Positions 1 to 52,224 of a stretch of DNA of 64,000 nt are shown here, one piece after another; position 1 is the stretch's first letter; each line of letters starts with the position of its first letter. Under the pieces are notes generated by a model. The model searched no databases. It saw only the letters and a list, made by a program, of their open reading frames with translations, and was not told the origin of the DNA. Both the position numbers and the translations under genes were made by a program. This stretch comes from a bacterium (GTDB taxonomy: Bacteria > Oederibacteriota > CAKKQC01): contig CAKKQC010000023.1 of NCBI GenBank assembly GCA_919901855.1, positions 21,876 through 85,875 of the forward strand. The letters are read 5' to 3'.

Positions 1-119
1 ACCTCCGCCGGCGGAGCGCCGGACGGAGCGGAGGCCGCCGGGGACACCCCCGCCGCCATCAGCGCCGCCACGGCCACGATCAGGGGCCGGCGGAAACGGG
101 CCACGCCGGCCGGACTCAC
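1..119 (-). CDS. Exported protein, N-terminal fragment (runs off the left edge)
   Basis: Reading the complementary strand from a GTG that overlaps the upstream PorV-like gene's TGA in a GTGA arrangement gives an open frame to the window edge. The first ~30 residues form a typical signal peptide: two to three arginines (VARFRRP), a hydrophobic core (LIVAVAALMAAGV) and a small-residue cleavage region (SPAASA). Only about 39 residues are visible, so function cannot be assigned. The overlap shows it belongs to the sppA / FlgD-domain / PorV-like run and is translationally coupled to it. The encoded protein should be exported to the periplasm or outer membrane. Confidence 0.6.
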   Translation of the reverse strand, partial: MSPAGVARFRRPLIVAVAALMAAGVSPAASAPSGAPPAE

Positions 120-3258: not shown

Positions 3259-5129
3259 CGCCGCACCGCGACCTTGCGCGTCCCCGCCCCGCCGGCGGTG
3301 GTGGCCGTTATGAAGTACATGCCCGCGGCCACCGGCCGGCCCCCCGCGCCCCGGCCGTCCCAGGTGAACCGCACCGCCTGGCTACCGTACCACCCGTCCA
3401 CGAGCCGCACGATCGTGTTTCCGGCGGCGTCGTGCACGCGCACCCGGACCCGTCCGTCCCGCTCCACGGCCACGAGCCCGGAGACCGACTCCCCCAGGCC
3501 GGGCGTGAACGCGTTCCGGTCCAGGATCAGGCGTTCGGGCAGGGGAATCCAGGTCGCCTTCCAGCCCTTCAGCACCGGCTTCACCCCCGGATTGCCGGGA
3601 TCCGCGGCCAGGCGTGCGCGCAGGACGAACGACGGGTACCGGTAGGCGTCCAGCGAGCCGGCGAGCGGGAATGTCCTCGGAATCGCGGCGAACAGGAGGG
3701 TGCCATCCGCGGCAAGCAGGTCGACGGCCACCGTGGATCCTCCGGACGTTTCCGCCTCCCAGCTCACACTGTTCCAGGCCTTGAGCGACGAGGGGCTCAC
3801 GGGTTTCGAGACTACCTCGGCCGCCCGCGCGTAGTAGCGAGCGGTCAGCCGGCGGACCACGGGGCGCCATCCCGAGAAGTGCCGGGCTCCCGTCGTCGGA
3901 GCCAGGCCGCTCGCCGCCGCCGCCGCGGTCTCGCGCCCATAGAGCGTCACGCAGAAACCGAGGTAGCGTCCGCCGACACCCGCGGGTACCGGCGCGTTGC
4001 CGATACCCGGGACCGGCAGGGGCACCGCCTGCGAGCAGGCCACCGGCGGGGCCGCACCGGCATCCCAGGCGATCGCGACCGGCGTCAGGGGGCTGCCGGG
4101 CGTCGGGCACGCGCAAGCGGGATCCACGTCGTTCGAGCTCTGGTCCACGTCCCACTCGATCCGTGTCCACGCCGTCTGGTCGGAGAGGGTATCCAGCACC
4201 GGCGACCGGTAGACGCCTTCCTGGGCCGTCAGGTAGACGGGCCCGAGTACCGTGCAGTGCCGCTCCGAGCCCGCCTGCGAGACGACCCGCACGTCATAGG
4301 ACGCGGTCGCCGCCGGAGGCGTGACGGTCACCGTGACGTGGGTCAGCCCCGCAAACGCCGTGCTGAGCGGCAGCCCCAGGTCGCTCTCTGCCACCGTGAC
4401 CGCCCCCGGGGCGGTCTGGTTCGCCGCACGATCCCAGAACCCGAAAGACAGGTACGGAGCGGCGCTGCCGTCGTGGTCGGCCGACGCCGAGAAGCTCGCG
4501 GCGTATTCGTGCCCCGCCGCGAGATTCGCGGCCCCTCCGGAAAGGATCGGGGAACCGCTGAACGGCGAGATGCCGCCGTACACGGGAGTCTGGACGCCCG
4601 CGCAGGCCGGTGGGCTGCCCGCCGGCGCGGCCGGGGTATCCCAGCCTGCCGCGGCGGCGTTCCCGTTTCCGACGAGGGGAAATCCCGACAATCCGCGCGG
4701 ATATGCGCGGCCGTTGACGACGCCGTGCACGGCAGGGTCGATCGGACACGCGGTCGTCCCGACCGGCGCGCAGGCGGAAGCTACCGCGAGCGCCTGCCCC
4801 GGCTCGTAGATCCTCTGCCAGAGGGTCACCGTCTCGCCGCTCGAGCCCGGGGCGAGGATCTCGATCGTCGGGTCCGGCTTCCCCGCGGAGAACCGCGCGT
4901 TCGCCGGGACCGTCCACACCTGTTCAGCCGGGTCCAGGCTCACGCCGCCCCCCGCCACGAGCTTGACGTGCCGGGATGCCGAGATCCCCTTGAGATCCTC
5001 GAAGCCGTCCATCCACGATCCCAGGCGCTGGTCAATGTGCAAAGCGCCGCCGGCAACACCGGCAACACCGGCCAGCCACAGCCCCGCCAGCGTCGTTGCG
5101 GAACGCCGGCGGAATCCCGGTATTCCCAC
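3255..5129 (-). CDS. Secreted protein with FlgD-like C-terminal domain (paralogue 2 of 3)
   Basis: I place the start at a GTG 7 nt after the preceding stop (624 aa, beginning VGIPGFRRRS). The open frame extends eight codons further, to a TTG inside the upstream gene. A signal peptide follows the arginines (LAGLWLAGVAGVAGGA). Shared landmarks with its neighbours are YRSPVLDTLSDQTAW, GRYLGFCVTLYG, 'SLKAWNSVSWE', a 'VAVDLLAADGTLLFAAI' block, and a C-terminal FlgD-like domain: RVRVHDAAGNTIVRLVDG, FTWDGRGAGG, GMYFITA and a final TRKVAVRR. This is the cleanest FlgD/T9SS-type-A-like tail of the three. The core domain has no function I can recognise. Confidence 0.7.
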   Translation of the reverse strand: MGIPGFRRRSATTLAGLWLAGVAGVAGGALHIDQRLGSWMDGFEDLKGISASRHVKLVAGGGVSLDPAEQVWTVPANARFSAGKPDPTIEILAPGSSGETVTLWQRIYEPGQALAVASACAPVGTTACPIDPAVHGVVNGRAYPRGLSGFPLVGNGNAAAAGWDTPAAPAGSPPACAGVQTPVYGGISPFSGSPILSGGAANLAAGHEYAASFSASADHDGSAAPYLSFGFWDRAANQTAPGAVTVAESDLGLPLSTAFAGLTHVTVTVTPPAATASYDVRVVSQAGSERHCTVLGPVYLTAQEGVYRSPVLDTLSDQTAWTRIEWDVDQSSNDVDPACACPTPGSPLTPVAIAWDAGAAPPVACSQAVPLPVPGIGNAPVPAGVGGRYLGFCVTLYGRETAAAAASGLAPTTGARHFSGWRPVVRRLTARYYARAAEVVSKPVSPSSLKAWNSVSWEAETSGGSTVAVDLLAADGTLLFAAIPRTFPLAGSLDAYRYPSFVLRARLAADPGNPGVKPVLKGWKATWIPLPERLILDRNAFTPGLGESVSGLVAVERDGRVRVRVHDAAGNTIVRLVDGWYGSQAVRFTWDGRGAGGRPVAAGMYFITATTAGGAGTRKVAVRR

Positions 5130-5136
5130 GGCCGAC

Positions 5137-7368
5137 TCAGCGCGACACCGCAAGGCGGGCGGTCTCCCGTCCGGCCGGAGTCATGACGGTGACGAAGTAG
5201 AGCCCGGGCGCCGCCGCCACGCCCTGCGGGTTGGTGTTGCTGTCGCTGCATGATGTCGGAGCATGCCCGCCGGGATCGCTCGTTCCGTTCCACCTCTTCT
5301 GGCAGATGTCGCCTGCTCTCAGCTCGCCGTGAAAGAGCCGCTTGACCAATTGGCCCGCCGCGTCGTGGACGGTCACGTCCACGAGCCCGGTCCTGTTCGT
5401 GCAGAACCGGATCGCGACATCCTCGCCGTAGGACATCCTTACGGTGTTCCGGTTCAAGGCGAGACACCCCTGGAGCGGGGTATAGCTTACCTTGAACCAG
5501 TAGACGCGCGGGTCCACCGGCGCCCCATTCCGGTACATCATGAACCTGACGCGGATCGACGGATACCGGCCGGGGTCGATGCCGGCCAGGGAACCGCCGT
5601 CAGGAACGTTCGCGAGGATGATCCCGCCTCCCCCGTCGAGCACGTCGCACACGATCCGGCCCGGCGCGGGGTCGCCCTTCTGGTAGTTAAGCCGCCCCCA
5701 GCGCCAGAGGCGTCCCGGCGTGATGGGCTTCGACACGCACTGACCCGCGTCCGGCTGGTAGGCCACGCGGAACTGGCGGACGCGCGGAAGGAGCGACCCG
5801 TCGTAGGACATGCCCGAATGCAGGCAGGAACCCCACGTATCGTAAAGACCGCCGGGCGGAGGGGGGAAGGGAGCCGGAGGAGGCGGATTGCCCGGAGACA
5901 GGTCGATGGACCACGACGAGAAGTCCGCGCGGTACTGGAAGTAGCGCCCCATGGCCGGCGGCATCACGTATTCGTCCGCCTCGTTCACGGGCAGGATCGA
6001 CGCGTCGAAGGTCGTGTTCGAGAACCCGAACCCCGTCGTGGTGTTCGCGACGCGCCAGCCGAGGCTGACGGGAGTCCGCACGCCCTTGGCGTCCGGATTG
6101 AGGTCGACGTTCCATGCCACCGTCATCCACTGGGTCTTGTCGCTCAGGGAGTCGAACGCGGGGGACAGGTAGGCCCCCGCCCCGGCCGTGATCGACAGCC
6201 CGTCGATGAACAGGGACGCCGCCGCGCGCGAGTTGGTGCACGGAATCGCCGGGGTTCCACATGAGGAGCCGGCATCGTTGCTGTTCGGCGGCGACGACGT
6301 CCCCGTCGTGCTCAGAAAGAATCCCCAGGTCCCGCCCGGCGGCTCATGGCACAGACCGATATTCATCCCGCCGAGGAGGTCTTCCCCGCAGTCCTTAGCA
6401 TCCCACGGACTCCCCGCCCCCCTGGTGCTGCCCGGCACGAAGCTGAAGGAATACGGCGTGTACGGCGCCTGAGACGGCACGCCGGGAGTGTTCAGGTAAA
6501 GCGTCGCCGTACCGCCTTCCGTCGGCGGGTCCGACAGCCGAAGGTGCAGGGGACAGCCGCGACTTCGCTCCAGACACCCGATAATGGGATCCTTCTCGCT
6601 GCACCCGGCATCCGCGCCGCCGAAGTAGTCGGTCCGGATCGTGCCGTTCGTCGTGTAGGTATAGCTGATGACGAAACCCGCGAGCCGGTCGTTGTACGCT
6701 CCCGAAGTCGGCGGAGGGTTGGGGTGCATGCCGGGCGACCGGAGCCACCACGTGGCGTTGTACGGATGGCCCGGCAGCAGGAGGTCGCGATTCGCATCCT
6801 GATAGACGTACAGCGCCGCCATGACGTAGTCCCCCGAGCCCTGGCACGTCTTGTCCGACTGGCACCGGTTGAACCCCGCGACGTCGGGCACCAGCAGGAC
6901 CTGCCTCGACTTCGCTCCATGCAGCACCTCCGCCCCCTGCGCGGAAATCGGGTAGAGCAGGCAGCGGGGGTTTGCCGTGCTGACCGGTGGCAGACAGTCG
7001 TTCTCCCACTCCATCGTGTCCGTCGCCGAGTAGAAGCGTTGGAACAGCTCGAGCGCCTCGCCGTACGGCGTCGCGGTCGCCACCTGGACGAATGTGGTCG
7101 CCGTCCCCGCCACCGAGAAGAGGGTGTCCGTTAGGTAGGTGGCGCTCGGTCCCGGCTGGGCCCAGGTCCACCCGGTCGTCACCCCGATCGAGGTGTTCAC
7201 TGAATTCACGGACACCGCCTGGATGAGGTCGAGTCCGGCGGTGTCCTCGAACTCCTCGGTGTAGACCCCCTCACGCGTGTTCCAGGTCCCCGACCCGAAG
7301 GCCCCGGACGCCCACAGGGCCACCGCGACCGCGGCGAAGAGCCCCCCCGGGCGAGCGGCGTGATCCAC
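5137..7368 (-). CDS. Secreted protein with FlgD-like C-terminal domain (paralogue 3 of 3)
   Basis: The chosen GTG lies 5 nt after the sppA stop and gives 743 aa starting VDHAARP with an immediate signal peptide (GGLFAAVAVALWASGAFG). The frame stays open 32 codons upstream, but only inside sppA. The order of elements matches the two downstream paralogues: EEFEDTAGLD near the N-terminus, YLSPAFDSLSDKTQW, GRYFQYRADF, LWRWGRLNY, 'IVCDVLDGGGGIILANV', LNRNTVRMSYGEDV and the FlgD-like end VDVTVHDAAGQLVKRLFHG ... GLYFVTV ... ARLAVSR. An insertion with two cysteines (TSCSDSNTN) interrupts the FlgD-like domain. It is cysteine-rich throughout. Tandem duplication of a large exported protein is the best explanation for the three-gene array. 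Confidence 0.68.
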   Translation of the reverse strand: MDHAARPGGLFAAVAVALWASGAFGSGTWNTREGVYTEEFEDTAGLDLIQAVSVNSVNTSIGVTTGWTWAQPGPSATYLTDTLFSVAGTATTFVQVATATPYGEALELFQRFYSATDTMEWENDCLPPVSTANPRCLLYPISAQGAEVLHGAKSRQVLLVPDVAGFNRCQSDKTCQGSGDYVMAALYVYQDANRDLLLPGHPYNATWWLRSPGMHPNPPPTSGAYNDRLAGFVISYTYTTNGTIRTDYFGGADAGCSEKDPIIGCLERSRGCPLHLRLSDPPTEGGTATLYLNTPGVPSQAPYTPYSFSFVPGSTRGAGSPWDAKDCGEDLLGGMNIGLCHEPPGGTWGFFLSTTGTSSPPNSNDAGSSCGTPAIPCTNSRAAASLFIDGLSITAGAGAYLSPAFDSLSDKTQWMTVAWNVDLNPDAKGVRTPVSLGWRVANTTTGFGFSNTTFDASILPVNEADEYVMPPAMGRYFQYRADFSSWSIDLSPGNPPPPAPFPPPPGGLYDTWGSCLHSGMSYDGSLLPRVRQFRVAYQPDAGQCVSKPITPGRLWRWGRLNYQKGDPAPGRIVCDVLDGGGGIILANVPDGGSLAGIDPGRYPSIRVRFMMYRNGAPVDPRVYWFKVSYTPLQGCLALNRNTVRMSYGEDVAIRFCTNRTGLVDVTVHDAAGQLVKRLFHGELRAGDICQKRWNGTSDPGGHAPTSCSDSNTNPQGVAAAPGLYFVTVMTPAGRETARLAVSR

Positions 7369-7373
7369 GGCGG

Positions 7374-8465
7374 TCAGCGCAGGAGGTACTTCAGGGCCAC
7401 CGCGCGGCCGGTGACTCCCGAGGGTTCGGGGAGACCCAGCATCCCGCCGAGATAGTCCATCCACGACCGCTCGCGCCGCCGCCGGGGGGGCGACACCGTG
7501 CCGGGCCGCCCACGGAGGTGCGCGAGCGCGGCGGCCCGGTCCAACGCGTCCTCGTATCCGCCGAGCTCGTCCACGAGCCCGTCGTCGTAGGCCAGCCGGC
7601 CCGACAAGACCCGTCCGTCAGCCAGCGACCGGAGCCAGGCCCGCGCCTCGCCGTCACGCACGTTCCCGACTTTCTTCCCGGTCTCCCGGGCGACGGCCTC
7701 GCGCAACTGCCGGCTGCGTCCCTCCCACACGGCATCGAGGAACTGCTCGTACACGTCCTCGACGGTTTCCTGCATGATCTCGCGCTCCTCGGGCGTCATT
7801 TTGCGGGCGAAGTTGCCGCTGTCCTTGTACCGGCCGCTCTTGATGACGACGTATTCGATGCCGACCTTCTTGAGGAGCTCCGCCGCGACCGGAAACTCGA
7901 GGATCACCCCGATCGATCCGGTCAACGTCCCGGGATTGCTGTAGATGGCGTCCGCCGGGCACGCGATGTAGTACCCGCCGGACGCCGCCACGCCCGCGAA
8001 GGACGCGACGATGGGCCGCCGCACCTTCCCCTTGTCCCTGAACTTCACAAGTTCGTCGACGATCTCCTGAACCGCCCCGACATCGCCGCCGGGACTGTCG
8101 ATCCGGAGGACCATGGCGCGGACCAGCGGATGCTTGTCGAGCGCGTGGATCTGGCTGATGATCCACCGGGGGTCCTCGATCGGCCCGTCGACCTCGAGCA
8201 CGCCGATTTTGCCGGGCACCCAGCCACCCCCCCAGTCGAACTTGAACCAGGGTTTCTTGGGCCCCGCCTGCTTGGCGGGCGACTTCGGGGCGGCGGGCGT
8301 GGACGGCTTAGCGGGAGATGCCGGCTTGGCCGGCGACGCCGGCTTGGACGGCGCAGGGTCAAGGTTCGCGGGCGCGGAAAAGCCTGCAGACGCAAGGCAC
8401 CATGCCGCGATCGCGATCGCGGCACCGACCCGGATTCTTCCCTGCTTGGCGCTCCCGACCCGCAT
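7374..8465 (-). CDS. sppA: Signal peptide peptidase SppA-type serine protease (S49)
   Basis: The 363-aa protein is of the short SppA type (single protease domain, like the Bacillus enzyme rather than the ~600-aa E. coli form). Residues 13-30 form the membrane/signal segment. A Pro/Ala/Lys/Ser-rich linker follows (about 37-72, repeated PAKPAS units). The protease core starts near IGVLEVDGPI. Catalytic residues are visible: Ser162 in GVAASGGYYIA and Lys214 in SGRYKDSGN, with the oxyanion-side RIDSPGGDVG motif. These enzymes cut leftover signal peptides in the membrane. It heads the run encoding three secreted paralogues and a PorV-like barrel, so a role in maturing exported proteins is reasonable but unproven. 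Confidence 0.9.
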   Translation of the reverse strand: MRVGSAKQGRIRVGAAIAIAAWCLASAGFSAPANLDPAPSKPASPAKPASPAKPSTPAAPKSPAKQAGPKKPWFKFDWGGGWVPGKIGVLEVDGPIEDPRWIISQIHALDKHPLVRAMVLRIDSPGGDVGAVQEIVDELVKFRDKGKVRRPIVASFAGVAASGGYYIACPADAIYSNPGTLTGSIGVILEFPVAAELLKKVGIEYVVIKSGRYKDSGNFARKMTPEEREIMQETVEDVYEQFLDAVWEGRSRQLREAVARETGKKVGNVRDGEARAWLRSLADGRVLSGRLAYDDGLVDELGGYEDALDRAAALAHLRGRPGTVSPPRRRRERSWMDYLGGMLGLPEPSGVTGRAVALKYLLR

Positions 8466-31511: not shown

Positions 31512-33581
31512 CTATCGACGGACGTTGATGACGAGGTCCACCCGCTGACGCTGCTCCTCCTCGGGGAGGTTCGGATAGCGCGGCGCCGGCCGGCTCCGCC
31601 CGTAGACGCGCAGGGAGACCCGCGACGCCTCGAGCCGGTACTCCTCGACGAGGGCGCGCAGAACCCGCTCCGCCCGCGCCTTGGCCAGCTCGTAATTTAC
31701 GTCGTCACCTCCGGGCACGTCCGAGAATGCCTCGATCGCCAGCGAACTACCCGGATGCTCGGCGATGAACGCCGCGGCCTTCTGGAGCACGAGCCGGTGC
31801 TCGTCGGTGAGCTCGGACGCGGTGCCCGTGTAGCGCACCCCGACCATGCGGACGCGGTTGCCGAGCAGCTCGGGCCGCACCTCCGCCTCGACCTGCGGGA
31901 TCGGCCGCTCTCCCTTGGTCGTCTGCCCGTCCTCGTCCTGGAACTTCCAGCTGAACTTGGGCGCTTTGAGCGCCGTCATCCGGCCCTCGGCGTCCCGGCC
32001 GTCCCACCGTATCGGCGTGTCCGGCGTGCCCTGACCCTGCCAGGTCCGGACGATCCGTCCGGCGTCCAGGATCTGAAGTTGCCAGAGCTGGTAGTTGCCC
32101 TGCGGAAGGGCGAACGCCACCTCGGGGTAGAACGGCTTCCCGGCCACGGGCCGGATCTGGGGCTCCGCGCTCACGGAGGCGATGCTCGAAGCCGACGAGG
32201 ACTCCCGGTTCGCCACGTCCTTCGCCTTAAGCACGAACCGGAACTTCGAGACGTCGGTCACGATCCGGCCCCGCTCGTCCGCGCCGTCCCAGTTCAGGCT
32301 CTTGGGCGGGAGACCGGTGCCCGCGAAGGTCTTGACCACCCGGCCGCGGTCGTCGGTGATTTCGACCTTCCACTCTTTGGGCGGCTGTTCGAACCGGATC
32401 GTCTTGGGCTCGATGACGAGGGCGGGCTTCACGGCCCGCTTGTCGATCGACACGGGCGCTTCCGTCGTCACCGCCTTCGGGATCCGGGGGATGCTCCAGC
32501 GAACCAGCATGGCCACCTGGTGCACGCTCCCGAGCGTGCCGAACGGCGCCAGTGCGTAATCGAGCTGGACCAGCGCCGTCGGCGAGACTTTCCACCGGAA
32601 GCCCAGGCCGGTCCGCAGCGGCGAGGGCAGCTTCGCGAGGCCCGAGGAGTTCCCGTAGTCGAGCGCCGTCTTGCCGAAGCGCTGATCCAGCGGCTGCTCC
32701 CACCCGGCCCGGACGAACGCGATCCCCGCCACCCCGTATTCCGCCCCGAGGGACAGCCGCGGCCGGCCGACGGAGTCGATGAACGAGGTCAGGTCCGCCG
32801 TCGTCAGGAGTTGGGATCCCCATAGTGGGGTCCGCAGGACCCCCCCGAGCCGGAAGGTCACCGGCAGGATCTCGCCGGCCCCGAGCGCGAATCCGAATCC
32901 CTGACCGAACCCCCCGATCGCCCCCATGTTCTGGACGGAGGCGCCCGCCGCCATCGTCCGGTCCAGGTTCTCCCACAGGACCCCGACGTCCGCGCCCAGA
33001 CCGCCCGCCTGGAAATCGACTGACCGGGTCGGAACCGAGTCCCCGGTGACCGGGTCGGTCCGGTAACTGGCCGGATCCGCGCCGGTCAGCGACCGCCGGA
33101 TCACCTTGAGGCTGGCGCCGACCGCGATCGATTCCGTCAGCGGCGCGGAATAGGTCACGAAGCCCATGAGGTCGGAGGCATCGCCGGCCGCCGCCCGCAC
33201 GAGCGCCTGGGGGTCCGTCGAATCGAAACTGCCCGTGGCGAGCGCCATGAAGCCGGCGCCCCCGTTGCCGAACCCGAACGGCTGGCCCGGGAACTCCACC
33301 GCTCCCGTGACCAGGTACACCCCCGTGATCTGGTCGGATTGGTAGAGCTTGACGTATGAGAACGCCCCCTCGGGCGCCGTAAGGTTCGCAGTGCCCGCAG
33401 GATTCCAGTAGACGGAATAGATGTCCTCCCCGACCGCGGTGTAGGAGCCGCCCATTGCCACCGCGCGCACCCCGGCCGCGATCTTGAGGAAGTCCGCGCC
33501 GGCCTCGCCCCGCGAGAGCGCGGCGGCGGGCCCCGCGGCCAACGCCAAGCCAAGAACCAACGTGACAGACCACCGCCTCAT
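31512..33581 (-). CDS. PorV-like barrel fused to FlgD-like Ig domains and an OmpA domain
   Basis: The 689-aa product has a signal peptide (1-21), then a PorV/UPF0164 barrel (about 22-360: FLKIAAGVRAVAMGGSYTAVGEDIYSVYWNPAGTA). Two FlgD-like Ig modules follow, each with the W-D-G-x-D-x-x-G hallmark: WKVEITDDRGRVVKTF ... LNWDGADERGRIV, and WQLQILDAGRIVRTWQG ... IRWDGRDAEGRM. The C-terminus is an OmpA peptidoglycan-binding domain (about 585-689: IEAFSDVPGGDDVNYELAKARAERVL, VDLVINVRR). The start is the ATG overlapping the thpR stop. The architecture could anchor a PorV-type barrel to the cell wall. I know of no characterised protein with this arrangement. Confidence 0.8.
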   Translation of the reverse strand: MRRWSVTLVLGLALAAGPAAALSRGEAGADFLKIAAGVRAVAMGGSYTAVGEDIYSVYWNPAGTANLTAPEGAFSYVKLYQSDQITGVYLVTGAVEFPGQPFGFGNGGAGFMALATGSFDSTDPQALVRAAAGDASDLMGFVTYSAPLTESIAVGASLKVIRRSLTGADPASYRTDPVTGDSVPTRSVDFQAGGLGADVGVLWENLDRTMAAGASVQNMGAIGGFGQGFGFALGAGEILPVTFRLGGVLRTPLWGSQLLTTADLTSFIDSVGRPRLSLGAEYGVAGIAFVRAGWEQPLDQRFGKTALDYGNSSGLAKLPSPLRTGLGFRWKVSPTALVQLDYALAPFGTLGSVHQVAMLVRWSIPRIPKAVTTEAPVSIDKRAVKPALVIEPKTIRFEQPPKEWKVEITDDRGRVVKTFAGTGLPPKSLNWDGADERGRIVTDVSKFRFVLKAKDVANRESSSASSIASVSAEPQIRPVAGKPFYPEVAFALPQGNYQLWQLQILDAGRIVRTWQGQGTPDTPIRWDGRDAEGRMTALKAPKFSWKFQDEDGQTTKGERPIPQVEAEVRPELLGNRVRMVGVRYTGTASELTDEHRLVLQKAAAFIAEHPGSSLAIEAFSDVPGGDDVNYELAKARAERVLRALVEEYRLEASRVSLRVYGRSRPAPRYPNLPEEEQRQRVDLVINVRR

Positions 33582-34147
33582 GCGGATCGCCCGCCGTCGA
33601 GCGGAATCACGCACAGCGATCGGTACTCGGCCCCCTCCGGAGAAAGGAGGCTCTGGTGCAAAATCACGCGATTGATAAGGCATCTCCCCCCACCAGTGTC
33701 CCGCGATTCCCCTGCCAGTTCAACGTGGCCGAGATCGCAGGGCGGGCGGAACCGGGCCAGCGTCAGATGCGCCACGAAAGGCTTGTCATCAGCCCTCTCC
33801 AGACCCAGGGCGGCGGTCAGGGCCCGGACCCGCCGGACCAGGGCGGACAGGCCCCCCCCCGCCGACTCCAGCCCGATCCACAGCACCCGGGCCCGGCCGA
33901 ACCCCGGAAACGCCCCGACGCGCCCGAGGCGCGCCTGGACCGGCGGTTCCCCCCGCAGGGACTCCAGCGAGTCCCGGAGACGGGCCACGTCCGCGTCCCC
34001 GATCTCCCCCAGGAAATCGAGCGTGAGATGGATCGCCTCCGGACGCGGCCACCGTCCCTCCGGAATCCGGGCCCGCAGCCGCTCGCTCGCGCGCGCCACT
34101 TCCGCGCGCGCCCCGGCCCCGATATCCGCCGCCACGAAACACCGCAC
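33578..34147 (-). CDS. thpR: RNA 2',3'-cyclic phosphodiesterase (LigT family)
   Basis: The 189-aa product belongs to the 2H phosphoesterase superfamily. Both HxT motifs are clear: HLTLDFLG (His40, Thr42) and HLTLARF (His127, Thr129). The GTG start (VRCFVAADIG) lies 2 nt after the cinA stop and gives the normal N-terminal R-x-F-(V/I)-A strand. Family members hydrolyse 2',3'-cyclic phosphate ends of RNA. The end overlaps the downstream barrel gene (ATGA). Confidence 0.92.
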   Translation of the reverse strand: MRCFVAADIGAGARAEVARASERLRARIPEGRWPRPEAIHLTLDFLGEIGDADVARLRDSLESLRGEPPVQARLGRVGAFPGFGRARVLWIGLESAGGGLSALVRRVRALTAALGLERADDKPFVAHLTLARFRPPCDLGHVELAGESRDTGGGRCLINRVILHQSLLSPEGAEYRSLCVIPLDGGRSA

Positions 34148-43311: not shown

Positions 43312-44241
43312 CTAGAACTTGACGAAGAGCGAGAAGCAGTTCGTGGGCTCGAACGAGTCGATCACGCGGAACGGCAGGTACGCGTAGTCGAGATGGTACT
43401 CGGCCTCGGGGCCCAGGACCGTCGACCGGAACTGCCAGCCACCCCCGAGCGTGAACGACGTCCCGCCGTATCGGTTGTAACTTCCCCCCGCGCGAACCGC
43501 GAGATGCCCCGCCTGGAGCCACTCCACCCCCACCGCGACCTTCGTGTTCTGCTCCGTGTTTAGGAGGGCGTCCGCCGCCACCGTGAGGGCGTGCGGATAC
43601 CAGCCGCGCGTCCAGCTCAATCCCCCGCGCACGGTGATCGGCAGGGGCTCGCCGGCCTCGAGGTGCTTGATCGGGTTGCCGAGGTTCGTGATCGACAGCC
43701 CGTACCGGATCGGGTACCGGCCGGTGCCCTGGCTGAGCATCCCCAGATCGACGGCGACGGAGGTCGCCCGGATGTCCCCCAGGGCGGAATTGAAGACCTT
43801 GATGCTCACGCCGCCCGCGCCGCCCAGGCCGCCCATCCGCCGCGCGAAGGTCATGAGAATCGCTCCGTCGCTCACCGCCACCGGCTCGTCGATCGCGTCC
43901 TGGTTGGCGATGTCCGGGAGGGACCGGAAAAGCACGCTGCCGGCCCAGATCCCGAAGGACCCGAGGGGCACCGAGTAGGACGCGTACTCCGTGCGGTTGT
44001 CGGCCACGCCCGGCCAGTGCATGAGCATGAGCGACCGGGCCCCGACCGGGGCCAGCATGGCCGGGTTCACGAGCAGGGCCGAGAGGTCGCCGGCCAGCGC
44101 CGTCCCCGCGCCTCCCATCGCCAGACTGCGCGCGCCCGCCTGAACCTTGAGGAGTCCCGCCCCGGTGGTGCCGACCCCGGCCGCCCGGAGCGGCGCGGGC
44201 ACGGCGGCCAGCAGGGCGAGGAGAACGGCGATGGACCTCAC
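43312..44241 (-). CDS. PorV/PorQ-family outer-membrane barrel protein
   Basis: The 309-aa product starts at a GTG overlapping the preceding TGA (GTGA) and has a signal peptide (SIAVLLALLAAVPAPLRA|A). The family signature follows: GLLKVQAGARSLAMGGAGTALAGDLSALLVNPAMLAPV. The rest is strand-rich and ends with a beta-signal phenylalanine (CFSLFVKF). Its position directly behind a DUF11/FlgD-domain protein and a SprA-like giant barrel recreates the SprA-PorV-cargo association of type IX secretion. I infer a role as shuttle or anchor for exported proteins. Confidence 0.75.
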   Translation of the reverse strand: MRSIAVLLALLAAVPAPLRAAGVGTTGAGLLKVQAGARSLAMGGAGTALAGDLSALLVNPAMLAPVGARSLMLMHWPGVADNRTEYASYSVPLGSFGIWAGSVLFRSLPDIANQDAIDEPVAVSDGAILMTFARRMGGLGGAGGVSIKVFNSALGDIRATSVAVDLGMLSQGTGRYPIRYGLSITNLGNPIKHLEAGEPLPITVRGGLSWTRGWYPHALTVAADALLNTEQNTKVAVGVEWLQAGHLAVRAGGSYNRYGGTSFTLGGGWQFRSTVLGPEAEYHLDYAYLPFRVIDSFEPTNCFSLFVKF

Positions 44242-46367
44242 CGGATCACCGCCACGGTCCGGAAGTCCCGCTTGCGGTTGACCTCGAGCACGACGAGGTA
44301 GACGCCGCTGGCCACCAGTTCCCCGTTGCCGTTGGTGCCGTCCCAGACGAGGGGCGGCAGGCCGTAGTTGTGCGAGTTGAACGGGGTATCCTGCGTGTAG
44401 GGACCCTGCTGGTCCTGGTCGTAGAGCTTGCGGACTAGTTCGCCCGCCTGGGTCCATACCGACACCCGGAGCCGGCCTGGCTCCGTGATCTGGTAAATGA
44501 TATCGAGCCGCTCGCCCCGCGCCGGCCGCATGCGGTTCCGGTTGAGGTAGGTCCGGTTGGTCGGCAGCACGACGTCGATGATCGTGCTCGGGTACGCGTC
44601 ACCGAGGTTCCCCGCCGCGTCGATGGGCCGGATGATGTACAGGTACCGCTTGCCGTAGGTCGGCACGGTCAGGTCCACGAAGAAGAGATCCGTGCATGGG
44701 GTGGGATTGAGGCGGAGCAGGGACGACCCGCCGTCGTCGCTCCGGAAGATCGCGTAGCCGGCCAGCGGGGCGAAGCTGCCGTTCGTCGCCGCGGTCCAGG
44801 ACAGCCGCACGGCCCGGGGACCTGAAGGGTCCATCCGGGCGACGGGCTGGCCCCGCCCCGACGCCGGCCGGAAGGGAATCGCGGACAGGAACGACGGCCG
44901 GCGGTCCGGACAGCACGGCACGAACATGTACCAGTACGTCTGAAGGTTCGTCAGGGGGGGGGACCCGGCAAGGGTCGTCAGGTACTCGTCCTTTACGGCT
45001 CCCGCATTCGTGACCGGCGAGCCCCGAATGCCGGCGAACGGCCCGCCGGGGTCCGTGGACCTGAAGATGCTGTAGCTGGCGACCGTTGGTTCCGGGTAGG
45101 GATTAGACGGCCAGAACAGCTTGACGTACCCGTCCCCCGGCTGAACAGTCAACGGCGTCGCGCTCAGCGTGTGGCCCGAATCCACGAGCGCCGTCACCGT
45201 CATCGGCACCACGCCCCCAATCGCGTCCGAGAACGCGCTGGCCCCGCACGCCGAAAGCGTCTGGATCCGGTACGTGTAGCTGGCGCCGTTCGCAAGCCCC
45301 TGGTCCCAGAACATCCTCGTATCCAGATCGTGCAGCGTGCCGCCGGTCACTCCTTCGGCTCCCACCGGGGCGTAGGTCGAACCACCGTCGGCGCTCCGCC
45401 AGATCTCGTAGCCCGCGGTGACGCCTCCCCCGGCCTCCCCCGTCGGGGACCAGGTGAGGACGGCCCAGGAGTCCCCCCCATATGCGGTGGCGGAGATCCA
45501 CGGGACCGCCTCGACCACGTCGGCCGACTGCGTCCACAACTGCGGCGGACTCACCACCGCAGCCGCGCCGCATCCCGTACCGCCGGTCGCGAACGCGGTG
45601 AGCGTCGTCGACCACGAAATCGAGACGCAGGTCGGCGAGGCGCTGAGAGAGAAGCTGAGCAGGCCGAACGGAGGCAGTTCCACGGCCTGCGCGCTCCACA
45701 CGAAGAGCGTCCCGGAACCGGGCTGGGAGATCACGGCGGGCGCCCCGAACGGGGCGGGCTGGCCGGACGCATAGACGCCCGCGGCCGGGGGCAGGGTGTC
45801 CGTGATCGTGATATCCATGACGGTCGCGGTGCCAGTGTTCAGGAGCGCGATCGCGTAGTTCCGGCTGTCTCCGGACTTGACGAGGTTCACCTGGTAGGCG
45901 TGGCCCAGGATGAATCCCGGCGCGCTCGCCGCCGCCTCGACCGTGGTCGCCCCAGTGGCCGCGACCCACACGGTCGAGCCCACCCAGGCGGCGTCGCATG
46001 TCACCCCCACGGTGCCCGTGATCGTGAAGGTGTAGGTCGAGAGCGGCGCCATGGTCAGCCCGGTGGCGCTCCACGCGTAGATCGTCCCGGTCGCCCCCGA
46101 AGTGACGGCCACCGAGAATGCGTCGTCATGCCAGGTCGTCGTGCCCGTGACCTGCGGCGCCACCGTGTCCACGAGCTCGATCGACGTTATGGACTCGTCT
46201 CCCGTGTTCTCGACCACGACCTGCCAGCTCACCGCACCGCCCGAGACCGGGGCGGCGGGAGTCTGACCGACCGAAATCCCGACGTTCACGGTGGCCGCCG
46301 CGGCCCCCGCAAGGCAGGCGGCGACGACGGCCGGCACCAGGCGCGAAATCGGCATCCGGTTCCCCAT
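44238..46367 (-). CDS. Surface protein with DUF11-like, fibronectin III and FlgD-like domains
   Basis: The 709-aa protein has a signal peptide (about 1-25). Two DUF11-like modules span roughly 26-280 (VENTGDESITSIELVDTVAP; LLNTGTATVMDITITDTLPP). Three fibronectin-III-type modules follow (GYEIWRSADGGSTY...YTYRIQTLSACG; SYSIFRSTDPGGPF; GYAIFRSDDGGSSLLRL...YLYIIRPIDAAGN). The FlgD-like C-terminal domain (about 620-709) reads GRLRVSVWTQAGELVRKLYD, LVWDGTNGNGELVASGVYLVVLEV and a final FRTVAVIR. It looks like a secreted or surface-displayed adhesin or stalk and the likely cargo of this locus. Confidence 0.78.
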   Translation of the reverse strand: MGNRMPISRLVPAVVAACLAGAAAATVNVGISVGQTPAAPVSGGAVSWQVVVENTGDESITSIELVDTVAPQVTGTTTWHDDAFSVAVTSGATGTIYAWSATGLTMAPLSTYTFTITGTVGVTCDAAWVGSTVWVAATGATTVEAAASAPGFILGHAYQVNLVKSGDSRNYAIALLNTGTATVMDITITDTLPPAAGVYASGQPAPFGAPAVISQPGSGTLFVWSAQAVELPPFGLLSFSLSASPTCVSISWSTTLTAFATGGTGCGAAAVVSPPQLWTQSADVVEAVPWISATAYGGDSWAVLTWSPTGEAGGGVTAGYEIWRSADGGSTYAPVGAEGVTGGTLHDLDTRMFWDQGLANGASYTYRIQTLSACGASAFSDAIGGVVPMTVTALVDSGHTLSATPLTVQPGDGYVKLFWPSNPYPEPTVASYSIFRSTDPGGPFAGIRGSPVTNAGAVKDEYLTTLAGSPPLTNLQTYWYMFVPCCPDRRPSFLSAIPFRPASGRGQPVARMDPSGPRAVRLSWTAATNGSFAPLAGYAIFRSDDGGSSLLRLNPTPCTDLFFVDLTVPTYGKRYLYIIRPIDAAGNLGDAYPSTIIDVVLPTNRTYLNRNRMRPARGERLDIIYQITEPGRLRVSVWTQAGELVRKLYDQDQQGPYTQDTPFNSHNYGLPPLVWDGTNGNGELVASGVYLVVLEVNRKRDFRTVAVIR

Positions 46368-46368
46368 C

Positions 46369-49300
46369 CTAGAAGTTGAACATGAACGTCCCGAAGAAGG
46401 AAAATGCCTTGAAACTCGATATCGGCGTCGTGAAGTCCTTGACCTGGTCGAACTGCGCGCGGAACCGCAGATTGATGCCCTTCAGCATCTCGTATTCGAA
46501 CTCGGTGAAATCCTGGAGCTCCTGGGCCTTCCGGTTCCCGAAGGTCTGCCCGATCGCCTCGTTGTTAATGAAGTTCATCCGGAAGTTGTGGCGGATCGTG
46601 AACAGGTTCGTGAGCTTGAGCCGCCACCAGATCAGGGGGATGTCGAGCCCCGCGCTCTTGCTGTAGCTCAAGGATGCGCTCGGCTGGAGGCTCCGCTGGA
46701 TGGTCTTGACCACGGGCGGAATCCTCGTCATCGACACGTCGGCGGACATCGAAACGTTCCCGCTGAGATTCTTGACCGGACTGAACCCCATGCTGCCCGT
46801 CGCGTTGTGGTTCTCGGTGATGTTCGTCGGCTGATCCCTGAAATCGAAGGTCGTCGCCTTCCGGAAGTTGTACGTGGACTCCAACCCGTCGAACTTCATC
46901 CAGAAGAGCGGGGTCACGCCGAAAAACTTGGTAATGAGCTCGTGCCGCGTCAGCGAGAATCCGGTTCCCGCGGTCGTCGACGTCGTCCGGGTTCGAAGCT
47001 TCTGCTGGAGCAGAGTCGATTCGCGGAAACTCCAGTTTGGCGTGAACTGGAGGGCCCGGAGGAACACCATGCGCCCCCCCGCGACATACGTCTCGGCGAA
47101 CGAGTTCGCGGCCGATAGATTGTCGTTCTTCCGGTCGATCCACCACAGGTCCCGGAGCGGCACCCGGCGCGTGACCGGATCGATGACCACCGTCTTGGTG
47201 CCGGTCGTCTGCGTCACGTCGTTGTAGGTCCCGCTCGTCTCGATCGTGTAGCCGAGGTTGAAACTCTGGTCGATCAGGGCCTTCCACCACTCGCCCGGCC
47301 GCAGATCGAGGTTGTTCGTGAGCATGCTGTTGCTCGCGAGGTTAGCCCGCGTGAAGTCGCGCGAGACCTTGCCGTTCCAGTTGGACGACGGCGTGACGCC
47401 CTTCATGCCGTCGATCCGGTTGTCCAACCCGGCGGAGACGTCCTGGAGGACGGGGACGAACCGGCCCGCGCTGTTGATCGAGTTCGGATTCTCGATGTTG
47501 GCCACCTGGAGCGACCCGATGATCCCGCGCGTCCGGTTCATGTGGTAGCCCGCCCGGGGCGAGGTCGCGTAACCGGGCAGGATCGGCACCTTGAGCTTCT
47601 TGAGAACGGCCAGCGGATGGTAGGTCGTGCGAGCGTCGTACTGCTCGTCCAGGGTCTCGGAGGTGCGGTCCACGAGATTCTTGAAGATCTCGGACGGCCC
47701 GTAGTTCGTCCGGTCCTTGGTGTAGCGGGCGGACGCGCGCGCCTCCCCTCCGCTTCCGAGCGGGATGACGCGGAACAGGTTCCCGTCCAGCGGCGCGCGC
47801 ACCTGGGGCTGGGCCGACCACGTAACCCGGTTGTAGTCCGCCCCGGCCACCCCGGTCAGATATGCGACCGTCTGTTCCGACCGGTTCGCGGACACGTCCA
47901 CCGACACGGGGGCGAGGTGCTGGCTCGACACGGTGACCTGGTACGAGTCGGCTTGCGTGTCCGGCGAGAAGAAGTACACGGGGTCGTCGCGGTGCGAGCT
48001 CTCGACGTAGGCGACGTCGTGCTGCCAGTTCCCCGTGATCGGGAGCTTCGGGATCTGCCGGATCTGCAGGTTCGACCCGATGGACCGGCGGTGCTGGTCG
48101 TTCGCGATGAATGCGGCCTGGTCCAGCAGGCGGAAGTCGTTGTCCAGCTCCCGGTAGGTCGTGTCGAGGATGATGCCGGCGTTCGCCGGCAGTATCTCCT
48201 GGTTGGGATCGACGATGAAGGTCGAACCCATGGGCGTGGACATCCTGACGTTCACCTTCCGGGCGATGCCCGTCTTGTGCGCGGGAGTGACGAGCCGGAT
48301 GTTGTTGATCCAGAGGCTCTCGGTCGCGGCCGACGCCGCCGGGTCGTACCGGATCACGCCGATCGCGAACTGGCGCACGCCCGAGAGGGTGGGCGTGCCG
48401 ACGCGCGCCCGGTTGCGCTGGTCGCGGAGGTTGATCACGACGGTCTGCCAGCCCGGCCCGATGTGGTCCAGGGGCACGTTGAACTGGAAGTAGTTGCTGT
48501 CGTCGCCTCCCGCCCGCAGGAAGAGGATCTCGCCGTTGTTCTCGTTGAACACGTGCGCCTTGAACACGTCGAGACGCAGCTCCTCGTAATCCAGGAGGTT
48601 GACGGGCGTCGGAAAGGCCCGCGAGGCGAAGTAGTTGCCCCCGAGGTCGTCGTAGAGGTTGTAGTCGAGCTTGAGGGCCTGCTCCCGGCGCTCGGCATCG
48701 GTCTCGCGCACCTGGTAGTAGGTCAGCAGCGGCACGTACTCGGCCGCCGTCTCCTCGCTGATCGCGCTCACGTTGAATCTCGTATTGTCCACCGGCAGCG
48801 TGCTCCCCGGCGTCGTCCGCAGGACCCAGCGGTTGCCGGTCACCCCCAGGCTCTCGATCCTGATCTTGCCGGACGGGTGGGCGCCCGAGGCGTCGCCCTG
48901 GAGCCAGATGCGCATGTGCCGGATGACCGACTTGTCGGGGGCGTCGGGCGTCTTGGCGAAGGTGACGGTCAGGTTGGGCACGGCCTCGGTCTTCACCACC
49001 AGGTCCCCGGCCAGGCTGGTGAAGGAAAGCGGGATCTTGACGTAGTTCCAGCCGGTCCAGGACACGCGCATCCGGTACTCGAAGTACTGGTTCCGCGTGT
49101 CGAGCACGCCGTTACCGTTCATGTCCTCGGTGTTCAGGAGCGTCCCGCCGGGCCCCGGGTACCCGGTGCCGTTGATCGTCATCACGCCGTTGCCGCCCCA
49201 GAACGGGCTCCCGTCGTGGTTGATCCCCGTATCCTCCCCCGCGTTCAGGACGAAGTCCCCGTTGAGGTCCTCGGTATCCAGCGCCGGGTGGGTAGCCGCG

Positions 49301-52224
49301 TTCCCGTTGCCGTCCTCGGACACCACGCCCAGGCTGACCGAGAGCATGTTGTTGCTGTTATCGCCGTACACCCACATCTCCAGGTACTGGTAGTTCGTCA
49401 GATCGAGCCCCACCGGCGACAGCACGTACCGGAGCCCCTCCCACTGCCCGGGCCCCAGCCCTTCGTAGTTCAGGTCCAGCGTCCGCGCCAGGTCCGAGAA
49501 GTGCCCTCCCTGCTCGGTCTTCCAGGCCAGCTTCGCCGTCCGATTGGCTTGGCTCGTCGTCGGCGTCTCCGGCGCGGAACCCGGGAACCAGCTCGACGCC
49601 TCCGACCCCGCGTCGATCACGTCGTCCACGCCCTCCATGCTGTCGATCATGGCCACGCCCTTCTCCGCGACGCCCGACGGGTCGTACGAGTTCGGATTGA
49701 TGTTCGAGCGCGCCACCTCGCCCCTGATCTCCATCTCGAGCGGCACGACGGCGCGCTGGAACCCCGGCAGGACGCGCAGGACCTCGGACAGGTCGCCCCG
49801 GGACAGGAACGTCCGTCCGTCCAGCCCCGCGATCGACGTGGCTTTCGGCGCCGCGGAGGGCGAAGGCACGTCCTGGGGATTCTGCGCCGCGTTCGACAGG
49901 TAGGTCACCCCGAGCCCCGACCGCTCCGACATCGCGTACTGCGCCCGAGCCCCCCACAGGAAGCTCTGGAACTGGCCCCCGAACGGCAGGTACTCGTAAT
50001 CGATCTGGATCCGGGAGTCGTACCGGATCTGCTCGGGGCGCAGGAAGGTCACGTTCCCGAAGTCGTAGTCGATGAAGTAGTCCACGTCCCGCATGAGCAC
50101 CCGTCCGTCCATCGTGACGCGCTCGCTGCCGCGGACGATGCTGATGTTCTTGAGGCGGAATGACGTCGCCCGCACGAGGAAGCTCATGACGAGCTTGTAC
50201 CGGGGACTCGAGAACCGTGTCATCGTCCCGTAGCCGTAGGCGTTACCTCCCGGCTTGGTGGCGCTCTGCCACCACGGCTGGTTCGCCGCGTCCCATGCGA
50301 AGGGCTGCTCCGTCGCCGGCGCGTCCATGTAGTCCGCGTTGTTCGGCGGAACGCCGCAAGCGGACCCGAGGGCGCGGTTCGGATAGCTCGTGTAGTGTCC
50401 CGCCGGGTCGTAGTAGGGCGAGGATACATCCGGCGAGAGCCTCGGGTGGCCGCCCCGCCCCGCGGCCCCCAGGACTTTGAGGACGCCGAAGTCGTAGAAG
50501 TCGGAATCCAGGAGAGGGTTGATGATGCCGAGCACCTCGTTGCCCGCCGAGTCGTAGACGCGGATCGTGAACTCGGCGTCGAAGTCCTTGGGCACGATGT
50601 TGCGGAAGCCGAGCTGGTACCAATTCGTGATCATGTGGGCGTCGCCGGCCCCCGTATGGGGCCCGTCGAAGATCAGGTGCGCATCCCCCGTCGTGTCAGC
50701 CCAGAAGGTCGTCGTGATGTCCCAGTTCGACTTGAGGTTGCAGAGCGTCTCCGAATTGATGCGCGCCCCCGGCAGCCCGCCGAAGTTGACCGGAAGTCCG
50801 TCCCCGTAGGTGAAGGACACGGCGATCGCCGCCGTGTTCGAGATCGTGCGGTTGAAGGTCAGGACGCCGGTGGCGTAGTCGATCGAGTAGTCGACGCCCT
50901 GGTACAGGGGATCGAAGTGGAAGGTGCCGACCTGCATAGTGACACCCGGCACGTCGTTCGACGCCAGCCCGTCGTCCAGCCAGACCTGCTCCGATCCCGG
51001 CTTGATCCCCAGGTGGGTCTTTACCATCGCCGGGTTCGTGATGTAGAAGTACCGGTTGGCCACGTAAGAGTAGTCGAAGAACTCCGGCTTCTGCCGGGAG
51101 GCCGTCCCCACGAACTGCTCGCTCGCGTTGATCCCCTGGGTCTGGGTCGCCACGCCCGTGACCTTCAGCCGCTCGAGGGGACGCGCCTGGAGGCGCACGC
51201 CGAAGAGCGTCTTGTTGTAACCGGTGAACTCGGTGTCGGAAAGCTGCAGGTTGATGTCCCCGAACTCGGCCCGCTCGATGGTCTCCTGCGGTTCGCCCTG
51301 GTAGACCACCTGGATGCGCTGGCGCGTCGTCTCGGGGGCGGTGTCGTCGTAGTCCACGTCGACCGTGATCTTCTTCCCCACCGTGCCCATCAGCCGGACC
51401 TGCAACTGCTGCTGGAGGTCGAGCCGCTGGTTCTGCGCCCCCGAGATCTGGGACGTCCCCGGCGAGTTCTTGGGCGTCCGGATCGTGTAGCCGAGGGACA
51501 CGACCTTGCGGCCGGAAACGGATAGCTGGCTCTCGCCGAATCCGTACTCGACCTTCGGGATTTCGCTGATCACGACCGCGCCCTCCGGCCGCGCGCGCCC
51601 CTCCTCCGACGGCGTCGACAGACGCCCCTGCTCATCCACCCCCCGGACCGTGTAGTAGTACGTCAGGCCGTTCTCGGGCGGCCCCGTGGACGCCCCCTCG
51701 GTGTCCGAAAACTCCGTACCGGTCACGAGGGACCGGTTGACGGGCACCGGCCCGTAGACGCCCTCCTCGGTCGAGCGGTACACGTTGTAGCCGAGGATGC
51801 CGGGGGCCGGGGAGGGCAGCCATGACAGGTTCACGCTCTTGTCGGCACCGATCGCGACGAGGGCTTCCGGCGGCGGCGGGCCTCCGCCATCCGGCATCCC
51901 GGCTTCGCTCCCCAAGCCGGGAACAGGCTGGCCTTGGATCTCGCCGGGCATCTGCGCCGATTCGGTTCCCACCGGGGCGGCGGCCTCCCCGCCGGTCGCC
52001 GAAGCGGTCAGGGCTGGCATCCCGCCGGACGGCGAGAAAGCCGTAGAAGCAATCGAGACGGCGGGTTCTGACCGGGCTTGGGCCTGCGGCTGCATTGGAG
52101 CCGCCGCGGGAGCCGCGCCCAACGCGGGCCCCGCGAGCAGTCCGACGGCGATCAGTGCCCCCAGATGCACGCCCAAGATGACCTCCCGCGAACAGACGCG
52201 CACGCCGGTGATCGTGACGCCCAT
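46369..52224 (-). CDS. SprA-like giant outer-membrane protein with N-terminal FN3 domain
   Basis: The 1951-aa product has an N-terminal signal segment (~20-37), a Pro/Ala linker, an FN3 domain (about 118-212: VNLSWLPSPAPGILGYNVYRST...YYYTVRGVDEQG), then a very long strand-rich barrel. The stretch QQLQVRLMGTVGKKITVDVDYDD, RAEFGDINLQLSDTEFTGYNKTLFGVRLQ and TQTQGINASEQFVG...RYFYITNP parallels SprA/Sov of type IX secretion. So do two Asp-rich calcium-type loops (~985 EDLNGDFVLNAGED; ~1035 EDMNGNGVLDTRNQYFEYR). The end FSFFGTFMFNF is a barrel beta signal. SprA is the ~36-strand outer-membrane conduit; here it is shorter than the ~2400-aa Flavobacterium form. Confidence 0.8.
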   Translation of the reverse strand: MGVTITGVRVCSREVILGVHLGALIAVGLLAGPALGAAPAAAPMQPQAQARSEPAVSIASTAFSPSGGMPALTASATGGEAAAPVGTESAQMPGEIQGQPVPGLGSEAGMPDGGGPPPPEALVAIGADKSVNLSWLPSPAPGILGYNVYRSTEEGVYGPVPVNRSLVTGTEFSDTEGASTGPPENGLTYYYTVRGVDEQGRLSTPSEEGRARPEGAVVISEIPKVEYGFGESQLSVSGRKVVSLGYTIRTPKNSPGTSQISGAQNQRLDLQQQLQVRLMGTVGKKITVDVDYDDTAPETTRQRIQVVYQGEPQETIERAEFGDINLQLSDTEFTGYNKTLFGVRLQARPLERLKVTGVATQTQGINASEQFVGTASRQKPEFFDYSYVANRYFYITNPAMVKTHLGIKPGSEQVWLDDGLASNDVPGVTMQVGTFHFDPLYQGVDYSIDYATGVLTFNRTISNTAAIAVSFTYGDGLPVNFGGLPGARINSETLCNLKSNWDITTTFWADTTGDAHLIFDGPHTGAGDAHMITNWYQLGFRNIVPKDFDAEFTIRVYDSAGNEVLGIINPLLDSDFYDFGVLKVLGAAGRGGHPRLSPDVSSPYYDPAGHYTSYPNRALGSACGVPPNNADYMDAPATEQPFAWDAANQPWWQSATKPGGNAYGYGTMTRFSSPRYKLVMSFLVRATSFRLKNISIVRGSERVTMDGRVLMRDVDYFIDYDFGNVTFLRPEQIRYDSRIQIDYEYLPFGGQFQSFLWGARAQYAMSERSGLGVTYLSNAAQNPQDVPSPSAAPKATSIAGLDGRTFLSRGDLSEVLRVLPGFQRAVVPLEMEIRGEVARSNINPNSYDPSGVAEKGVAMIDSMEGVDDVIDAGSEASSWFPGSAPETPTTSQANRTAKLAWKTEQGGHFSDLARTLDLNYEGLGPGQWEGLRYVLSPVGLDLTNYQYLEMWVYGDNSNNMLSVSLGVVSEDGNGNAATHPALDTEDLNGDFVLNAGEDTGINHDGSPFWGGNGVMTINGTGYPGPGGTLLNTEDMNGNGVLDTRNQYFEYRMRVSWTGWNYVKIPLSFTSLAGDLVVKTEAVPNLTVTFAKTPDAPDKSVIRHMRIWLQGDASGAHPSGKIRIESLGVTGNRWVLRTTPGSTLPVDNTRFNVSAISEETAAEYVPLLTYYQVRETDAERREQALKLDYNLYDDLGGNYFASRAFPTPVNLLDYEELRLDVFKAHVFNENNGEILFLRAGGDDSNYFQFNVPLDHIGPGWQTVVINLRDQRNRARVGTPTLSGVRQFAIGVIRYDPAASAATESLWINNIRLVTPAHKTGIARKVNVRMSTPMGSTFIVDPNQEILPANAGIILDTTYRELDNDFRLLDQAAFIANDQHRRSIGSNLQIRQIPKLPITGNWQHDVAYVESSHRDDPVYFFSPDTQADSYQVTVSSQHLAPVSVDVSANRSEQTVAYLTGVAGADYNRVTWSAQPQVRAPLDGNLFRVIPLGSGGEARASARYTKDRTNYGPSEIFKNLVDRTSETLDEQYDARTTYHPLAVLKKLKVPILPGYATSPRAGYHMNRTRGIIGSLQVANIENPNSINSAGRFVPVLQDVSAGLDNRIDGMKGVTPSSNWNGKVSRDFTRANLASNSMLTNNLDLRPGEWWKALIDQSFNLGYTIETSGTYNDVTQTTGTKTVVIDPVTRRVPLRDLWWIDRKNDNLSAANSFAETYVAGGRMVFLRALQFTPNWSFRESTLLQQKLRTRTTSTTAGTGFSLTRHELITKFFGVTPLFWMKFDGLESTYNFRKATTFDFRDQPTNITENHNATGSMGFSPVKNLSGNVSMSADVSMTRIPPVVKTIQRSLQPSASLSYSKSAGLDIPLIWWRLKLTNLFTIRHNFRMNFINNEAIGQTFGNRKAQELQDFTEFEYEMLKGINLRFRAQFDQVKDFTTPISSFKAFSFFGTFMFNF

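Follow-up and report, generated by a model that had tools for sequence, protein, structure and literature searches.

A SprA-based, T9SS-like locus with candidate dedicated PorV-family carriers in a bacterium of the Coatesbacteria lineage

The DNA analyzed here (the window) is a 64,000-nucleotide stretch of contig CAKKQC010000023.1, from a genome of 4.68 Mb in 91 contigs that is 93% complete. Among named relatives, the nearest is a Candidatus Coatesbacteria MAG, with 65% identity over a SprA fragment (a single record). Three abutting genes on the minus strand at 43312–52224 encode proteins of 1951, 709, and 309 amino acids. The initial annotation described these as consecutive genes for a SprA-like, an exported, and a PorV-like protein, and all three are present as open reading frames. 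A single nucleotide separates the SprA stop from the ATG of the putative cargo gene, and the stop of the latter overlaps the GTG start of the PorV gene by 4 nt (ORF coordinates). The features of this locus, and of related genes elsewhere in the window, are as follows.

46369–52224, minus strand: SprA-family outer-membrane translocon, 1951 amino acids, with a signal peptide, N-terminal FN3, and an invariant C-terminal Phe (TIGR04189, 6h3i, F1951).
51586–51852, minus strand: FN3 domain of SprA, residues ~125–213 (3mpc match; phylum profile).
44238–46367, minus strand: exported DUF11/FN3 protein, 709 amino acids, with a C-terminal sorting-type domain; putative SprA cargo or surface component (Pfam; a CTD protein follows SprA in ~15 loci).
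44241–44480, minus strand: Ig-like CTD of the 709-amino acid putative cargo, residues ~630–709 (model, Foldseek, VIA-align, profile).
43312–44241, minus strand: PorV-family barrel, 309 amino acids, GTG start, putative dedicated carrier (NF033709 PorV_fam, 106.4 bits, cut-off 90).
116–1210, minus strand: second PorV-family gene, 364 amino acids, at the end of a cargo-cargo-cargo-PorV operon (NF033709, 166.8 bits).
1207–3258, minus strand: putative CTD cargo protein, 683 amino acids, with a 4-nt overlap with the PorV start (C-terminus VAPGVYFVVARVPGGRRVKKLAVIR; member of the CTD-HMM training set).
3255–5153, minus strand: putative CTD cargo protein, 632 amino acids (FlgD_ig match at genome C23:25169–25327; aligned CTD).
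5137–7464, minus strand: putative CTD cargo protein, 775 amino acids (FlgD_ig match at genome C23:27132–27257; aligned CTD).
31512–33683, minus strand: 723-amino acid fusion of a PorV-family barrel, a FlgD_ig-like domain, and an OmpA peptidoglycan-binding domain (PorV_fam 96.5 bits, cut-off 90; FlgD_ig 27.8 and OmpA 37.9 bits, both over cut-off).

The 1951-amino acid protein scores 263.5 bits against TIGR04189 in five stretches, above the cut-off of 200, and matches the PDB SprA structure 6h3i_A (phmmer, E = 8e-19), confirming its earlier identification as SprA-like. It is the only SprA copy in this genome. The comparison with the SprA structure that had been proposed as a check succeeded in part: a profile of 30 SprA relatives is colinear with residues 153–1578 of 6h3i_A (E = 1.4e-52), and the carboxy-terminal third of the barrel had no match to the solved structure with this profile. 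F1951 is invariant in 30/30 sequences, as expected for the C-terminal Phe of an outer-membrane barrel. Residues 125–197 match the Fn3-like protein 3mpc, and positions ~100–330 of the phylum profile match FN3 domains of titin and fibronectin. By score and colinearity, the locus encodes a translocon of the SprA/Sov type that characterizes the type IX secretion system (T9SS).

SprA is widespread in the phylum, being matched in 40 of 45 genomes and in 24 of the 25 of high quality, with only 3 of the 45 passing the TIGR04189 cut-off. Members of the PorV family occur in all 45, at between at least 6 and at least 42 matches per genome (up to 37 first-look candidates were scored in each). Five draft genomes (G015, G021, G010, G033, and G034) have no SprA match and keep many PorV genes, which counts against a SprA-based system; G015 is rated 99% complete, and the missing matches may reflect assembly gaps or true losses. 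In ~15 fetched loci from several families of the phylum, SprA is directly followed by a CTD protein without PorV, and the CTD of this protein is of one conserved type across those loci. By analogy with PorZ and PorU in Bacteroidota, such a protein might be a fixed component instead of mere cargo. The gene after SprA in other families is ComF-like or of another kind. Hence the trio described as an operon is present here but is not a conserved unit, since a CTD gene accompanies SprA in other families and PorV does not; we reject the three-gene T9SS operon in that sense.

Pfam matches in the 709-amino acid protein are to fn3 (2e-7), DUF11 (1.4e-5), and, below cut-off, FlgD_ig (E = 0.0039). Its CTD is modeled as a β-sandwich (pLDDT 77). 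The best Foldseek match to this model is PorZ (5m11, E = 2.1e-4), with PorU at rank 8, and VIA-align places PorU (6za2) first with a Z of 10.0 and unrelated Ig-like domains at 9.5 and below. A CTD profile finds FlgD first (2e-6) and then the C-terminus of Porphyromonas gingivalis PorZ (E = 2.3e-4). The FlgD-like domain noted initially is seen weakly by Pfam and matches PorZ by both profile and fold. As unrelated Ig folds score near PorU, the fold is compatible with T9SS CTDs and is not proof of one. Genome-wide, TIGR04183 has 27 matches, 15 of them over cut-off. A GxY motif occurs in 48/49 CTDs and a terminal basic-hydrophobic motif in 45/49, and the glycine of GxY is the only invariant residue across 42 putative cargo proteins. 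The passenger regions comprise β-propellers (Kelch, NHL, SBBP), DUF11, CARDB, and FN3. Proteins with a C-terminal Ig-like domain of the sorting type, as carried by T9SS cargo, are thus encoded here, and the domain is a putative signal.

The CTD could instead be a mere Ig-like domain with an anchoring or folding role in surface proteins that take a different export route, with SprA serving another role in this phylum. The wide occurrence of FlgD_ig domains, the closeness of unrelated Ig folds to PorU in VIA-align, and the weakness of most CTDs against TIGR04183 all speak for such an explanation, but it is hard to reconcile with the placement of the domain at the extreme C-terminus together with its near-constant GxY and terminal motifs, with CTD genes lying directly after SprA in many families, and with PorZ and PorU being among its best structural relatives. 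We regard it as very improbable.

The 309-amino acid protein exceeds the PorV_fam (NF033709) cut-off of 90 with its 106.4 bits, in agreement with the original assignment, and scores 29.5 bits against the PorV equivalog model (cut-off 250); it belongs to the general PorV/PorQ family, and in this sense a PorV-type outer-membrane carrier of the T9SS kind is present. At E ≤ 1e-3 this genome has 58 distinct PorV-like places, corresponding to about 58 genes, of which 17 score over the curated cut-off and 41 below. The predicted structures of the three window PorV proteins have a mean pLDDT of 31.6. Two PorV proteins in all are fused to OmpA domains, the second lying at L180:6435–8810; these fusions suggest a tethering to the cell wall that would resemble PorP-PorE. 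Three PorV genes (L245, L246, and L249) have no CTD neighbor, and each follows a gene of ~940 amino acids with a UvrA-like C-terminus. They possibly represent a conserved stand-alone PorV.

Most PorV-like genes are physically paired with putative cargo genes. The upstream gene was readable for 56 of the 58, and in 49 of these 56 the PorV-like gene directly follows a gene ending in a CTD, the order, cargo gene first and carrier gene next, that type B systems show. An overlap of 1–4 nt between cargo stop and PorV start occurs in 36 of the 49 pairs. When only FlgD_ig and TIGR04183 HMM hits are counted, a CTD lies within 343 bp upstream (105–343 bp) on the same strand in 28/58, versus 0.27 expected; one HMM-detected CTD lies downstream and none on the opposite strand. 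A CTD profile made from those 28 recovers 21/28 held-out upstream genes as compared to 6/802 control ORFs, and some of these six are visible CTD proteins from the same loci. The unpaired exceptions include barrels beside apparently unrelated genes. Elsewhere in the phylum, 16 of 40 PorV genes sampled from the top-scoring hits have a CTD upstream, and the pairing is therefore widespread and not universal.

PorV and CTD sequences have also diverged together. Their distances are correlated (Mantel r = 0.60, 0/5000 permutations), with r = 0.47 when limited to PorV pairs that are less than 40% identical. Linked genes that were duplicated together could show this pattern even if their products do not interact. 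Because ~50 cargo/PorV pairs sit in translationally coupled genes, each carrier probably serves its adjacent cargo. At 116–7464 in the window (minus strand), three CTD proteins precede PorV in an operon-like array, with one carrier for three putative cargo proteins.

These same pairs bear on whether the barrels are carriers at all. The PorV-like proteins might be FadL/UPF0164 small-molecule transporters and the CTD proteins surface proteins that happen to share operons with them, with SprA acting alone or with few partners. UPF0164 is indeed a Pfam match among these barrels, one window PorV matches FadL/Toluene_X below threshold, and the literature describes expanded FadL families in Treponema; an uptake function, however, predicts neither a CTD gene directly preceding 49 of 56 on the same strand, nor the mostly overlapping reading frames, nor the matched divergence, and the diversity of the passengers (Kelch, NHL, DUF11, CARDB, FN3) likewise argues against it. 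The initial annotation had held that FadL-type transporters without interaction would overturn a T9SS-like reading. Sequence alone cannot separate PorV from FadL, but the genome-wide pairing with CTD genes counts against FadL, and we find the transporter explanation improbable.

The motor, ring, and sortase of a T9SS present a different picture. The initial annotation saw no motor gene in the window, and its proposed search of the remaining genome for motor and PorU homologues came back negative for GldL, GldM, GldN, and a C25/PorU-type peptidase. In profile searches with permissive E-values, GldM was found in 0/31 phylum genomes, GldN in 0/45, and GldL over cut-off in 0/45. The GldM and GldN absences are provisional because none of the named control genomes matched either model, and that of GldL is likewise provisional; the GldL/GldM motor and GldN ring are to this extent missing. 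Weak GldL matches in three genomes (E = 2e-4 to 7e-3, ~16–21 bits, cut-off 68) we attribute to chance or to coiled coils. In plasmids searched for a control carrying SprA, the sole match, in Salinibacter, covered the FN3 region. Judging by neighboring genes, all three ExbB/MotA-family genes of this genome belong to other systems, namely two ExbB-ExbD-TonB sets and one flagellar MotAB set. At the latter locus (L265), a hook/rod-like gene accompanies the MotAB-like ones, all of flagellar type; a flagellum is therefore probable in this organism, and one FlgD_ig match may be a true FlgD.

C25 peptidases (PF01364), the family sought for a PorU sortase, number none in this genome and occur in 4/45 phylum genomes (loci L108–L111, in G017, G011, G002, and G044). 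Uncleaved cargo might not need PorU. The type B carrier family PorP_SprF (TIGR03519) is similarly without a match in this genome and over cut-off in 0/45. Weak PorP_SprF-like proteins occur at three loci (L267–L269; 63–65 bits, cut-off 90.6), and in G018, G031, and G032 a PorP_SprF-like protein lies on the SprA contig within ~10 kb.

An ordinary T9SS would account for these absences if its motor, ring, and sortase had diverged past Bacteroidota profiles or fell into assembly gaps. The TIGRFAM models for GldL, GldM, and GldN are tuned to Bacteroidota, no positive-control genome stands behind the absences, and the genome is 93% complete; moreover, because SprA passes its cut-off in only 3/45 genomes, other T9SS parts may be as diverged. 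Yet SprA and PorV match in most of the same genomes in which the three Gld searches failed, the ExbB/MotA-family genes here occur only in ExbB-ExbD-TonB or flagellar sets (GldL might or might not match that family), and C25 peptidases, absent here, are detectable in four other phylum genomes. On balance, we think an ordinary T9SS with diverged or missing parts somewhat unlikely.

Since SprA, carrier, and CTD are found and the motor, ring, and sortase provisionally are not, we consider this a T9SS-like variant and not a full T9SS. The locus quite likely encodes the translocon of a T9SS-like system of the Coatesbacteria lineage that, built on SprA and equipped with dedicated PorV carriers, secretes proteins and anchors them at the surface, a function deduced from sequence. 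Its basis is the homology of SprA, PorV, and CTD and the pairing, coupling, and co-divergence of the genes. The divergent T9SS-like system outside Bacteroidota proposed in the initial annotation is supported by SprA and PorV passing curated cut-offs and by a CTD that is T9SS-like in sequence and fold; taken as a whole, the initial interpretation is partly supported.

We infer from this basis a secretion route, docking, carrier specificity, surface location, and motor independence along the following lines. Sec would take cargo to the periplasm, where the C-terminal Ig-like domain would enter the single SprA channel. A PorV-type barrel would dock at the side opening of SprA and bind the cargo CTD, and the carrier-cargo complex would exit SprA sideways. 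The cargo would then remain on the cell surface, held by its own carrier, and the PorV-OmpA fusions would tether cargo to the cell wall. As no GldL, GldM, GldN, or PorU-type peptidase was found in the genome, release from SprA may draw on a different source of energy or need none.

We tentatively extend this to a motor-independent type IX-like system, in which a single SprA would serve ~50 cargo proteins, each having a PorV-type carrier of its own that extracts it and holds it permanently, with cognate binding and anchoring replacing the proton-driven GldKLMN chain and the PorU sortase throughout the phylum. This is plausible but falls short of probable. In Flavobacterium johnsoniae, motor energy extracts the PorV-cargo pair from SprA, and substrate becomes trapped on SprA once the motor is removed (PMC10994853), which argues against motor independence. 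In the open literature (most subscription papers lay outside its scope), we found no earlier account of an expanded PorV family or of SprA operating without a motor. A phylum with SprA, dozens of PorV/CTD pairs, and no detectable motor makes the role of the motor directly testable, as well as the question of which component of the machinery performs the work. The cargo/PorV pairs are in addition a natural data set for recognition of CTDs by carriers, and suggest that dedicated carriers extend beyond the PorP/SprF family.

The literature places the T9SS in Bacteroidota alone, with the wider FCB group as a possible outer limit. The present system shares with the T9SS of F. johnsoniae and P. gingivalis (SprA/Sov, PorV) a SprA homologue, PorV-family barrels, and Ig-like CTDs on exported proteins. 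In F. johnsoniae, PorV docks at the side opening of SprA, and its loops hold the CTD within the channel (PMC10994853). In contrast to Bacteroidota, GldL, GldM, GldN, and a C25/PorU-type peptidase were not found here, SprA has one or more N-terminal FN3 domains, and many PorV-like genes take the place of one general PorV.

In Bacteroidota, type A cargo uses one shared PorV, whereas type B cargo relies on dedicated carriers whose genes come immediately after those of the cargo (PMC12618676, PMC12635249). The known analogue of the pairs described here is type B cargo whose gene is followed at once by that of a SprF-like carrier (PMC12618676); the two systems share an outer-membrane barrel gene directly after the cargo gene and, presumably, cargo that stays bound to its carrier (PMC12618676, PMC9143113). 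They differ in that the carriers here belong to the PorV family and the CTDs are type-A/FlgD-like, with no PorP_SprF match in the genome, and in number, with ~50 cargo/PorV pairs as compared to the 12 type B substrates of F. johnsoniae. Cell-wall anchoring of type B proteins is the task of PorP-PorE (PMC9143113), and the link of an outer-membrane carrier to an OmpA-type peptidoglycan-binding domain is shared, but here the PorV and OmpA domains are joined in one polypeptide (31512–33683; L180). Lastly, the FadL/UPF0164 barrels are a related family, as indicated by the UPF0164 Pfam match, and the barrels here are distinguished from them by their systematic coupling to CTD cargo genes.
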